Program-made: the position numbers and the translations under genes | Notes under the pieces: model-generated | The model's input: only the letters and a program-made list of their open reading frames with translations | Database searches by the model: none | Told to the model about the DNA's origin: nothing | Shown: positions 14,922 through 20,198 of the stretch, in pieces | How positions within the stretch are numbered: the first letter of the stretch is position 1 | How the letters are laid out: each line of letters opens with the position of its first letter | NCBI GenBank assembly: GCA_019744885.1 | Contig: JAIETY010000119.1 | Location: 1 to 33,218 of the forward strand | Origin: Sphingomonas sp. | GTDB lineage: Bacteria; Pseudomonadota; Alphaproteobacteria; Sphingomonadales; Sphingomonadaceae | DNA: 33,218 bases | Reading direction: 5' to 3'

Positions 14922-16112
14922 ATGCGCGAAGCCGCCATCGTCGCCACTGCCCGCACCCCTATTGGCAAGGCCATGCGCGGCGTGTTCAACGTCACCGAAG
15001 CGCCGGTGCTCGCAGGGCATGTCATGAACGCCGCGGTCGAGCGCGCCGGCATCGACCCGAGCCGTATTGACGAAATCTTCTGGGGCGTTGGCAACCAATG
15101 GGGCAGCCAGGGCGGCAATGCCGGGCGGATGGCGGTGTTCGCCGGCAACCTGCCGCAAAGCGTCCCCGCTTTCTCGCTCGATCGCAAATGCGGCTCGGGC
15201 CTCACCGCCGTCGCGCTCGCCGCGCGCTCGATCATCTGCAACGAGATCGACGTCGCGCTCGCGGGCGGCATGGAAAGCGTGAGCATGACCGCGCAGAACG
15301 CCCCGCGCTACATCAACCAGTCGGTGATCGCCAACCAGCCCGCCGCCTATATCCCGATGATCGAAACCGCCGAGATCGTCGCCGAACGCTATGGCATCAG
15401 CCGCGAGGCGCAGGACCGTTACGGCGCCGAAAGCCAGCAGCGCGCCGCACGGGGCCTCGAGACCGGCGCCTTCGTCGAGGAAATCGCCCCGATCACCGTC
15501 GAGCGCGCGCTGATCGACAAGGAAGGCAAGGAAACCGGCCGGGAGCAGGTTACCGTCAGCCAGGACGAAGGCATCCGCCCCGGCACGACTTATGAGGGCC
15601 TGAGCGGTCTGCGCACCGTCTGGCCCGGCGGCGAGTTTACCGGCCCGGGCAGCAACATCACCGCGGGCAACGCCAGCCAGCTGTCCGACGGCGCGAGCGC
15701 GCAGATCGTGATGGACCGCGCGACGGCGGAAGCCGAGGGCAAGGAAATCCTGGGCATCTATCGCGGTTTCCAGGCGGCGGGCTGCGCGCCCGACGAAATG
15801 GGCATCGGCCCGGTCTTCGCCATCCCCAAATTGCTCGCGCGCGCGGGGCTGAGCGTCGCGGACATCGGCCTGTGGGAGTTGAACGAAGCCTTCGCCTCGC
15901 AATGCCTCTACTGCCGCGACACGCTCGGCATCGATCCGGAAAAGTACAACGTCAACGGCGGCGCCATCGCGATCGGCCACCCGTTCGGGATGACGGGGTC
16001 ACGGCTGGTCGGCCATGCGCTGATCGAGGGGCGGAAGCGCGGCGTGAGGTGGGTGGTGGTGTCGATGTGTACGGCGGGCGGGATGGGGGCGGCGGGGTTG
16101 TTTGAGGTGTAG
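14922..16112 (+). CDS. Acetyl-CoA C-acyltransferase (thiolase family)
   Basis: [23 protein letters not shown]...[15 protein letters not shown]...[19 protein letters not shown]...[17 protein letters not shown] aagaggaga. Confidence 0.96.
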
Positions 16113-16180
16113 GGGTTCTTGCAACCCTTAAGCGACCCGCGTTTACCTATTTTGAAGTTTGCGCCGTTTCGTGTGTCTTC

Positions 16181-16210
16181 GGGACCAGTCATCGCTTAGT
16201 GTCTGGTCCC
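16181..16210. repeat. Inverted repeat GGGACCAG-N14-CTGGTCCC between convergent genes (terminator-like or island boundary)
   Basis: gggaccag at 16181-16188 and ctggtccc at 16203-16210, perfect 8-bp complement. Confidence 0.6.
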
Positions 16211-16238
16211 GTTGTGCAGGAAGGTGCGAGGTGATTTT

Positions 16239-18806
16239 TTATCCATTACCTGACCTGCGCCTCACCCGGGCCACTATCGCCCCGATCTCCCGCGATTCTA
16301 AGGGCGCAGCGAACTTATTGAGCCGCTGCGCGCTGTAGATGCCATTCGACATTGCGGTGACGAAGATCTCGACCAGCCCATTCAGGTGAGCATCTCGAGA
16401 GGCTGCCTGCTTCGCATCGGCCTTCATATCCTCAAGTTCAGAGAGCGCGGTCGGCGCCATCAACGCATGACGGGCCATAATCTGCCAACGCTTCAGTTGG
16501 AGTTCGAAGCGATCGTCGTGGGCGATTGCCTCTTTCAGTTCAGCGACTGCAATGTCTGGCGCTCCGCGGAGTTCTGCATGTTCAGCGAGCACCTCGTGGT
16601 ACGCGCCCGTTGCTCCAGGATGAGATCGAAGATCGCTGAGCGCCTCATCGTAGCGCTTTTTGAGGTCTGATGGAGCCGAGTTTCGCAGCGTCGGCGCCTT
16701 GTCCATCCATAAAAGATAGATGCGGCAAAGCGCGTACTTTGTGAAAACCGTCTGACGGACATTCGCCCAGTCTAAAGCATAGCCTTCGGCGAGCCGGAAA
16801 TCAGGGTTCTTAGTAAGAAGAATACACTTTATGAGCGGCCTGTAGATGCGTTCCAGCCGATTTCCCTTTCCCTGATTTAGGCTAAGCGCCTCCTCGTACT
16901 TGGCCTTGGCCTCCAAAAATCGGTTCTGAGATTCCAGGGCGAATGCTTCAAGATAAGAAGCAATCTCCTTGCTATTGTAATCTCCATTCAGGAGAGAGAT
17001 GCAAGTCCCCACATCGTTGCTGTGCCCGGTCCTGATTGCCGCAAGGCCCAAGTATCGCAGGAGTTCTGTCCGCGAGGCATGGGCAAATGATTCCCTTTTC
17101 TCGAACGCCTTCTTAAGAAGGCGGTGTGCTGCAGTATGCTGTCCCGCGTGATAGAGGCGCACGCCCGCTTGAAACCAATGAGATGCGGAGACAAATTTTT
17201 CTATTAGGCTGGGTAGTTCGTCCTTGCCGGTCCAAAGTGAAGCTTGGATGCGGGCTTCGATCCGTATAAACTCATTCTCCTGCGTATCGAAATCGATAGG
17301 AGACTTGGCGAAGTCCTCGATAATCTTGCGCCGCCAACTCACGAGATCGGAACGGACCAGATGGCGAGCCAGTCGACCTGAAAGGAATGGAGTCAGCCTG
17401 TACAGTCCACCACCGTCGCGCTCTACAAAGCCCAGCTTCATGCACTTTGATATGATACTGAGGATCGATTCGTTAGCCTCTCCGAATATTGTGCCCAAGT
17501 CGCGGGGGTCGCATGGACTGACGTCGTTCAGAAACAGGAGGAGACGTTGACAGTTAATGTCGTGTTCTAGCGTCCCAAACGCCCAATCGACATAGTACGC
17601 TATTGACTGGAGAGCTCTATTTTTTGCATGCGTGAACAGTTCGTCGACCTCCCCGAGATCGATTACCGAACTGGCGGCCTTGGTGAGCGTCACTAGCAGA
17701 CCAAAATTACCCTGTGCGGCCTCTATCAGGTCGGCGACCGCCTTCGCCGTCCATCGATCCGGTTGGGGGTCGAAATGTGCTAACAGGGACTCGGTGAAGG
17801 AGGTGACCTCATGGCTAGAAAAACCGGGGACCCGTTGTTCAGCAAGCCTGTCCAAACAGGCCTTCCTGCGTTCAATGGAAAGCGGCATCTGCGATATGAT
17901 GAATAGCTTGGGCCGTTGCGCCGGATCGAGGAATCCCACTACGTCGTCGAACCATTCCGGCAGATCGACATTGTTTTGAAGGATCATCTCGTGCCTGAAT
18001 ACGACGTAGTTTCCGGCTTGAAATATCCGTTCGATTCTCGCGGCCACGCCGGAAGGCAGTTCTGCTTCTGGAGCTTTCTGCACCTGCTCGAGCCGATCGA
18101 AATCCGCACCCAATCCTGCGCTCTCAAGCTTTAGGCATATCTGTTGCGGGAGCGAGGCAGCATTGATATCGACCGAGATTAGGCGCCCGTTCGGCGTCAA
18201 CGACCTATTTAGTTGCTGGACCAACGTAGTTCGTCCGGCACCCGGAAACCCCGAAATCCACATGGCCGGAAAGCACTTGAACCGCTCCTTCTGCGCCGCA
18301 GACCGCATTGGCTCAAGAATGTCATCCCGCGGAAAGATCGGATGGGCAACGTTCATCGCCGGCTCGATAAACCGTTGAACTAGGTGCCTTGCGTCGTCCA
18401 CTGGAATGTTAGGCCGAGAGGTTCGGACACCAAGGAGCCGATCCAAATCTGAAAAAATTGTTCTTAACTCAACGGGCAGTTGATCGACCCAAGTTATTGG
18501 GAAATCATCCAACCTAAGGATCAAGGGCGAAAGCGTTCCTTGGGCGACGAGTTCGGCTGCCTGACGCAATTCCCGCACACAGCCTTGCGCCTTAACATAA
18601 TTCTTCGACCAGAAGACTATGAGATACTTCGAGGATGGAAGCTCTCGGGTGGAAATTTCGTCCCAGAGTTCGGCGCCCTCTTCGCCTGATGCCGAGTAGA
18701 GGTAAGCCCAGTCACGAGGCAGATCGTCCCAAATGACGCGGGCGAATTTCTCGTCCTTTGAACTAACCGAAAGAAAAACGGGGTACATCGAATCGCGAAC
18801 CCTCAA
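16239..18806 (-). CDS. TIR domain - NTPase (STAND-like) - TPR-like repeat protein; candidate immune effector
   Basis: N-terminus YPVFLSVSSKDEKFARVIWDDLP...SASGEEGAELWDEISTRELPSSKYLIVFWSKNYVKAQGCVRELRQAAEL (TIR pattern); MWISGFPGAGRTTLVQQLNRSL (P-loop-like); C-terminal helical repeats (AGQHTAAHRLLKKAFEKRE, ESQNRFLEAKAKYEEALSLNQ). Likely start is ATG 18788. Visibly lower GC than its neighbours. Confidence 0.85.
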   Translation of the reverse strand: MRVRDSMYPVFLSVSSKDEKFARVIWDDLPRDWAYLYSASGEEGAELWDEISTRELPSSKYLIVFWSKNYVKAQGCVRELRQAAELVAQGTLSPLILRLDDFPITWVDQLPVELRTIFSDLDRLLGVRTSRPNIPVDDARHLVQRFIEPAMNVAHPIFPRDDILEPMRSAAQKERFKCFPAMWISGFPGAGRTTLVQQLNRSLTPNGRLISVDINAASLPQQICLKLESAGLGADFDRLEQVQKAPEAELPSGVAARIERIFQAGNYVVFRHEMILQNNVDLPEWFDDVVGFLDPAQRPKLFIISQMPLSIERRKACLDRLAEQRVPGFSSHEVTSFTESLLAHFDPQPDRWTAKAVADLIEAAQGNFGLLVTLTKAASSVIDLGEVDELFTHAKNRALQSIAYYVDWAFGTLEHDINCQRLLLFLNDVSPCDPRDLGTIFGEANESILSIISKCMKLGFVERDGGGLYRLTPFLSGRLARHLVRSDLVSWRRKIIEDFAKSPIDFDTQENEFIRIEARIQASLWTGKDELPSLIEKFVSASHWFQAGVRLYHAGQHTAAHRLLKKAFEKRESFAHASRTELLRYLGLAAIRTGHSNDVGTCISLLNGDYNSKEIASYLEAFALESQNRFLEAKAKYEEALSLNQGKGNRLERIYRPLIKCILLTKNPDFRLAEGYALDWANVRQTVFTKYALCRIYLLWMDKAPTLRNSAPSDLKKRYDEALSDLRSHPGATGAYHEVLAEHAELRGAPDIAVAELKEAIAHDDRFELQLKRWQIMARHALMAPTALSELEDMKADAKQAASRDAHLNGLVEIFVTAMSNGIYSAQRLNKFAAPLESREIGAIVARVRRRSGNG

Positions 18807-18995
18807 AAAAATACAAAATAGATCATATATGAAAGAAAGTGCAAGTTACTCCCTTCCAAAATAGGAAAACCTCCGCCACTCTCCCACCGACTCGCTCTTT
18901 CGCATCCCCCTAACCCCCGCAGCACCCCCCGCGCGCGCAACCTCCAACCGGGGCTACCCCCTAGGATGGTCGTGACTTTTGACACCTTTCGCGCG

Positions 18996-20198
18996 TCACA
19001 CCAGCCGCGTCTTGATCACCGGCGCGCTTTCCAGCGTGCGGTGGACCGGGCATTTGTCGGCGATGACGAGCATCCGCGCGCGCTGGGCTTCGGTCAGCTC
19101 GCCCGCCAGCGTGATGTCGCGGCTCAGCACTTCGATTTTCGGGCGGCCCTCGCCAGTGCTCGCGCAATCTTCCGAATGGCAGCGGTCGTGGCGCAGCAGC
19201 ACCGACACGCCCTCCAGCGGAATATTCTCGCGCTCGGCGACGAGCTTGATCGTCATCGCGGTGCAGGTGCCGAGCGCCGACAGCAGCAAGTCATAGGGCG
19301 TCGGCCCCAAATCGCTGCCGCCGACTTTCAGCGGCTCGTCGGCAAGGAAGCTGTGGCCCGATGAATCGACGATCGTCGTGAATTTGGCGTCGGTGGTGGT
19401 GACGCGGACATGGCCTTCGGGCGGCGCGTCGATCCCTTGCGCGGGCGCGAGGAAGGGCTCGACCCAGGCGGCGATGATCGCGGCGGCATAGGCGGCAGGC
19501 GCGGCTTGGGTGAGCAGATGGTCGGCGGTGCCGAGCGAGACGAAGCTCTTCGGATGCTTGGCCGCGTCGAAGATCTTGCCGGCATTTTCGATGCCGACGG
19601 TCGCGTCGGTCGCCGCATGGAGCACGAGCAGCGCGCGCTTGAGCTTCGCCAGCCGCCCGGCCTGGTCATGCCCCTCGACCGCGTCGAGGAAAGCGCTGGA
19701 GACTTCGAACGGCCGCCCGCCGATCGTCACTTCGGCTTGGCCCTCGGCGCGGACTTTGGCAATCTGGTCGCCGAGCTGGTGGAGCACATGCGCGGGGTCG
19801 AACGGCGCGCCGATCGTGACGACGGCGGTGCATTCGGGAATCTCGCCAGCGGCGGCGATAACGGCCGCGCCGCCGAGCGAATGGCCGACGAGAATCGCGG
19901 GCGCGCCGACGGTGCCGCGCAGATAGTCGGCGGCGGCGATCAGATCGGTGACATTCGCCGCGAAATGGCTGTCGGCGAAGCGCCCCTCCGACTTGCCGAG
20001 CCCGGTGAAGTCGAAGGCGAGCGTGGCGATGCCATGCTCGGCCAGCGCCATGCTGATTCGCCGCGCGCCATGGCTGTTGGCGGTGCAGGTGAAGCAATGC
20101 GCGAATAGCGCGACGGCGCGGACGCGGCCCGGCGGCATTTCGAGCCGCCCGACAAGCCGGTGACCATTGGCGTTGGTGAAATCGACGTCGCGGCGCAT
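18996..20198 (-). CDS. Bifunctional alpha/beta hydrolase / OsmC family protein
   Basis: N-terminal hydrolase (AILVGHSLGGAAVIAAAGE) fused to an OsmC domain (LKVGGSDLGPTPYDLLLSALGTCTAMTIKLVAERENIPLEGVSV...DKCPVHRTLES). Confidence 0.92.
   Translation of the reverse strand: MRRDVDFTNANGHRLVGRLEMPPGRVRAVALFAHCFTCTANSHGARRISMALAEHGIATLAFDFTGLGKSEGRFADSHFAANVTDLIAAADYLRGTVGAPAILVGHSLGGAAVIAAAGEIPECTAVVTIGAPFDPAHVLHQLGDQIAKVRAEGQAEVTIGGRPFEVSSAFLDAVEGHDQAGRLAKLKRALLVLHAATDATVGIENAGKIFDAAKHPKSFVSLGTADHLLTQAAPAAYAAAIIAAWVEPFLAPAQGIDAPPEGHVRVTTTDAKFTTIVDSSGHSFLADEPLKVGGSDLGPTPYDLLLSALGTCTAMTIKLVAERENIPLEGVSVLLRHDRCHSEDCASTGEGRPKIEVLSRDITLAGELTEAQRARMLVIADKCPVHRTLESAPVIKTRLV

Follow-up and report, generated by a model that had tools for sequence, protein, structure and literature searches.

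A solitary TIR-STAND-TPR gene of a Sphingomonas genome is probably a far-diverged member of the TIR-NLR defence family

Can a solitary gene that joins a TIR domain to an NTPase and a repeat region be assigned to a known defence family, and what would its product do? The question is raised by a stretch of Sphingomonas sp. DNA (contig JAIETY010000119.1, positions 1 to 33,218 of the forward strand; assembly GCA_019744885.1), the whole of which, 33,218 nucleotides, is called the window here. The first-pass annotation, which was made from the letters alone, read an 855-aa frame at 16239-18806 as a candidate undescribed anti-phage system and could not assign it to a named family.

The gene and its domains

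The frame at 16239-18806 is indeed open, on the minus strand, but the start proposed at 18806 did not hold. Position 18806 is a TTG upstream of an ATG at 18788, and since relatives align from the latter, the start was set there. The gene is thus located at 16239-18788 on the minus strand, with its stop codon at 16239-16241, and encodes a protein of 849 aa. The putative TIR glutamate that had been numbered E79 is therefore E73 (18570-18572). Upstream of the gene, the promoter-like letters TTGCAC-N18-TATTTT are present on the minus strand (18844-18815) as described; however, the promoter that they had suggested was not recovered. A promoter scan returned no site, where chance alone would give 1.1, so the letters carry no weight. 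Just past the stop codon, at 16180-16211, lies an inverted repeat whose 12-nt arms are separated by 8 nt (CGGGACCAGTCA ... TGTCTGGTCCCG); it is possibly a terminator or a regulatory hairpin.

Along its length, the 849-aa protein matches three Pfam families in succession: first TIR_2, whose E-value of 1.6e-8 passes the cut-off, then AAA_16 at 2.3e-4 and finally TPR_2 at 1.3e-3, the latter two falling short of theirs. The TIR domain spans about residues 1-135 (18384-18788) and the STAND-type NTPase domain about residues 150-400 (17589-18341), including a Walker A motif, GFPGAGRTT, at residues 180-188 (18225-18251). Model secondary structure and the family alignment place a helical/winged-helix-like linker at about residues 401-530 (17199-17588), and TPR-like helical repeats follow at about residues 531-849 (16242-17198), all on the minus strand. 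An AlphaFold2 model built with 19 sequences is of moderate confidence (mean pLDDT 73, pTM 0.53) and is composed of a TIR-like alpha/beta N-terminal part, an alpha/beta NTPase core and then an extended helical stretch. In the PDB, its fold is best matched by the STAND-TPR protein 6mfv (E 2.5e-9), plant RPP1 (1e-6), CED-4 and Avs5. Whole-chain TM-scores of these matches are low (0.2-0.3), so they back the domain type, not the detailed geometry. HMM search and structure prediction thus both returned the TIR and NTPase domains. The annotated TIR-NTPase-repeat architecture and its likeness to NLR/STAND proteins were borne out by Pfam, by segment matches to a family profile (see below), by the predicted model and by the fold matches: an N-terminal TIR domain, a central STAND NTPase and a C-terminal TPR region in one protein, which is the architecture of TIR-NLR.

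The site and the acquisition of the gene

The gene lies between a thiolase gene (14922-16112, plus strand) and a hydrolase-OsmC gene (18996-20198, minus strand), which are 2883 bases apart. As had been noted, this patch is visibly richer in AT: its GC content is 0.53-0.56 versus 0.64-0.69 in the flanks, and GC3 of the gene is 0.60 versus 0.80-0.88 for neighbouring genes. Other genes in the window encode a DbpA-type DEAD-box helicase, NrsF with a sigma factor, a PP2C phosphatase and a branched-chain oxoacid dehydrogenase cluster. A defence island at this site was ruled out, the neighbours being housekeeping genes. PADLOC found no defence neighbours among the window genes; only helicase models were matched, as expected because of the DbpA-type helicase.

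In the genus mate G019, the thiolase gene (84% DNA identity) and the OsmC gene (84% protein identity) are only 850 bases apart, the gap is filled by a different sequence and the gene is absent. It is also absent from G022, in which the gap is about 500 bases. Therefore, the gene was gained at the window site or else lost in these relatives, and its low GC content favours gain. A sequence search of 294 other genomes of the genus gave no match at E <= 1e-3, and the remaining matches among the 295 genomes searched were all partial, with E >= 2.5e-3. By profile search, a single further member of the family at full length was found in the genus, in the genome G013 at a different location. The gene is thus not a conserved, syntenic gene of the genus. 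Low GC and GC3, absence from the 294 genus mates and the lack of the gene at this site in two of them support the earlier view of a single-gene cargo, acquired horizontally and, it seems, recently.

Carriers of the gene were sought in phage and plasmid records. No phage or viral carrier was found in IMG/VR, and phage records gave matches only at chance level. On plasmids, tblastn found only distant relatives of full architecture, in Zymomonas (23% identity) and Photobacterium (22%). The gene is flanked by 14-nt imperfect inverted repeats that are 93% complementary, at 16141-16154 and 18857-18870 (GTTTACCTATTTTG / CAAAATAGGAAAAC). A small mobile element with these repeats as its termini was rejected, as 17 of 400 shuffled flank pairs score equally. 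The repeat motif is absent from the two closer relatives described below (G833 and G711), and no second copy of the left flank was found in the window genome.

Relationship to the TIR-NLR family

TIR-NLR is a validated single-gene anti-phage system composed of TIR, STAND and TPR domains, which was found in P4-like satellites (Rousset et al. 2022, PMC9122126). Its founding member, a single gene, shields E. coli from many phages (PMC9122126). We searched GTDB species genomes in a profile-guided scan with a single TIR motif, FLS[HV][SH]S[KA]D[KE], and found 18 homologs of matching length and domain order. Reliance on one motif skews the sample toward its carriers, and relatives nearer to the window protein may have escaped the scan. 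Although the motif allowed V8 and E13, none of the full-length homologs recovered with it has V8. The 18 homologs are from Pseudomonadota, Thermodesulfobacteriota, Bacillota, Bacteroidota, Balneolota, Cyanobacteriota, Melainabacteria and Acidobacteriota. Together with the proteins of Zymomonas (recovered again as G865), which is of the same taxonomic family as the window genome, Photobacterium and G013, they made a family profile of 21 homologs, from which the window protein was left out.

All 21 homologs match the PADLOC model of TIR-NLR (PDLC03015), with a best E-value of 2.7e-200 in the run on the 18 scan homologs and 9.4e-277 in a later run. Their profile matches the window protein with an E-value of 4e-56 over residues 1-662, so that the last 190 or so residues are outside the alignment. 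None of 200 shuffles of its residues was reported. Separate segments match as well (TIR, 3.5e-10; NTPase, 4e-15; residues 401-849 with the TPR, 8e-23), and residues 141-849, with the TIR removed, give 2.5e-41, indicating homology beyond the TIR domain. The PADLOC TIR-NLR model itself does not match the window protein at E <= 10, nor does any other PADLOC family, including the Avs models; the AVAST (Avs) families were thereby rejected. Since the broader profile detects the protein, we read the PADLOC miss as a limit of a narrow model. From this sequence homology, the window protein is in all likelihood a far-diverged member of the TIR-NLR family already described. An undescribed family was ruled out by the profile match and by the PADLOC matches of all the homologs, and the named family that the first-pass annotation lacked would be that of Rousset et al. 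2022 (PMC9122126), with the window protein in an outlying subclade.

Some surroundings of the homologs were recorded. Genes near the 18 scan homologs give strong matches to models of type I restriction-modification, BREX, SngBC and PD-Lambda-1. In G013 (L033:11286-15283), genes that may form a second defence operon lie beside the TIR-NLR gene: they encode a ThsB-type TIR protein (PADLOC ThsB 1.8e-49), a nucleoside deoxyribosyltransferase-like protein and a patatin-like phospholipase of 997 aa. On the Zymomonas plasmid pZMOB03 (L031:2237-4951), about 1 kb separates the TIR-NLR gene from an upstream gene for a 904-aa protein with HD-CE and an HSP90-like ATPase, which is possibly its partner or a separate system. 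Elsewhere (L008:1396-3159, G652:C74), a 587-aa ORF with a protein-kinase-like N-terminal part and then a C-terminal TIR-like segment (KAFASYSSADRAEVLRRIQGMQ) adjoins an ABC transporter ATPase.

When 401 genomes of the order were searched, two proteins nearer to the window protein came to light, in G833 (46% identity) and G711 (32%), both genomes being of the same taxonomic family as the window genome. In the tree, the three proteins form a clade with support of 100/100 and a long stem (2.3 changes per column). The subclade is known from these three members. The PADLOC TIR-NLR model does not match the other two at E <= 1 either. The three genes lie alone at unrelated chromosomal sites: the thiolase/OsmC site in the window, RelE-HTH/lepA and glnB-glnA. 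In G833 (L122:6745-7459), the gene is between a RelE/HTH toxin-antitoxin pair and lepA.

Comparison with other systems places the protein further. The window gene shares with TIR-NLR a single gene of about 820-850 aa, the three domains, homology over residues 1-662, an Arg-type Walker A motif, Glu73 and a sporadic occurrence on mobile or variable DNA. It differs in being below detection by the PADLOC model, with only about 20% identity to other members, in its replaced residues of the TIR pocket, Walker B and GxP, and in its surroundings, where no phage satellite is recognisable. PDB entries 9m0n/9umd ('Tetratricopeptide repeat protein', 824 aa) are matched by the family profile over their full length (E 1e-219); a literature search found no paper on them. 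Their domain order is that of the window protein and their length is that of the PADLOC model, but they have His8, Asp31, the Asp of the Walker B region and the Pro of the GxP region. Avs5 / SIR2-STAND and Avs4 (AVAST) likewise have an N-terminal effector, a STAND core and a C-terminal repeat sensor; their effector is SIR2 or a nuclease whereas that of the window protein is TIR, and the likeness is by fold match, with no detection by sequence. Plant TIR-NLR RPP1 and CED-4 match its TIR/NB core at the level of the fold only, RPP1 having leucine-rich repeats instead of TPR and CED-4 no TIR. Thoeris (ThsB TIR with ThsA) was rejected: there is no ThsA-like gene among the window genes, and the TIR is fused to STAND-TPR.

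Altered motifs and proposed function

By analogy with the TIR-NLR family, the window protein is most likely a phage-sensing abortive-infection protein, in agreement with the sensor/effector role that the annotation gave it. The C-terminal TPR region would sense an infection cue, and the central STAND-like module would then allow oligomerisation. The clustered N-terminal TIR domains would be the toxic effector that halts the infected cell, probably through consumption of NAD+. We infer anti-phage defence on this ground.

Cat1, the TIR NADase of type III CRISPR, has a TIR domain homologous to that of the window protein, with a CARF sensor in place of STAND-TPR. Its H8, D33, S68 and E74 line the NADase site (PMC12162218). 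In vivo, Cat1 is no longer toxic once it carries D33A, S68A or E74A, whereas activity of the purified D33A protein is lowered only in part (PMC12162218). These four residues align with V8, Y31, A67 and E73 of the window protein. The catalytic glutamate, E73, is invariant in all rows compared, and Ser7, Ser9, Ser10 and Gly38 are also retained in all three subclade members. In contrast, all three have Val and Tyr for the His8 and Asp31 that the rest of the family conserves, and either Gly or Ala for the Trp/Tyr that stands four positions ahead of Glu73; two of them have Ala for Ser67. Thus, of the annotated degradation of NAD+ through the TIR glutamate, the conserved Glu stands but cleavage does not follow as a matter of course. 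In the NTPase, the usual Lys of Walker A is Arg. This is a family trait, as Arg is also found in 19 of the 21 other members (GxxGxGR); Lys is kept by only two, both Acidobacteria. At Walker B, each of the three subclade members carries Arg (Arg265 in the window protein) instead of Asp, a residue that a few other family members lack too. For the GxP Pro, the three have Gln, Ala or Asp (Gln359 in the window protein). Because the whole subclade shares these changes to the pocket, Walker B and GxP, the NAD+ substrate and nucleotide-controlled oligomerisation are the less certain, weakest steps of the proposed mechanism for this subclade.

It is rather doubtful, but conceivable, that the sphingomonad lineage has rebuilt its effector pocket (Val8, Tyr31 and Gly/Ala69 with Glu73 kept) together with the nucleotide switch (Arg in both Walker motifs, no GxP). 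It might then form some other TIR product or have no need to hydrolyse NAD+, and might fire without an ATP/ADP cycle. A related reading, possible although on the unlikely side, keeps the defence role but holds that the TIR has lost NAD+ cleavage and either makes another product or serves as a scaffold, the NTPase being a nucleotide-independent switch. The replacements of His8, Asp31, the aromatic residue, the Walker B Asp and the GxP Pro in all three members are consistent with this, as is the loss of toxicity in the equivalent Cat1 mutants D33A and S68A. Moreover, in a leave-one-out comparison at 38 columns whose conservation among the remaining members is 90% or more, the subclade members deviate at 14-18 and every other member at 0-4. 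The retention of Glu73 and the four other residues in all three members and the partial activity of purified Cat1 D33A argue against it.

The same deviations could mean that the protein is a decaying remnant of TIR-NLR with lost function. This is very improbable: the 849-codon frame is intact, and the relatives at 46% and 32% identity are intact too and share the replacements and 181 invariant residues. Shared replacements and intact frames point to purifying selection on a lineage-specific form. With 181 invariant residues and long intact frames in three members, the subclade changes look like a maintained alternative form, not decay. Improbable as well, if less so, is a role outside defence, in which a STAND regulator with TIR as a protein-interaction domain would serve the regulation of its own cell or a stress response. 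The largely housekeeping neighbours at all three subclade sites and the STAND regulators among the fold matches would suit such a role. The very sparse distribution, the low GC content and the absence from genus mates speak against it, as do the tested anti-phage activity of the founding TIR-NLR and the defence genes near other homologs.

In conclusion, what is new, as judged from sequence, is a TIR-NLR subclade with shared replacements that the PADLOC model misses. A named bacterial NLR-like defence family is thereby extended to a lineage beyond the reach of the current defence-gene profile, and because the profile misses this lineage, TIR-NLR is probably undercounted in alphaproteobacteria. 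The Walker A Arg raises the question of the nucleotide switch for all TIR-NLRs. The shared replacements in the TIR pocket and NTPase motifs amount to a natural experiment on the extent to which a TIR-NLR depends on its NAD+ pocket and its nucleotide switch.
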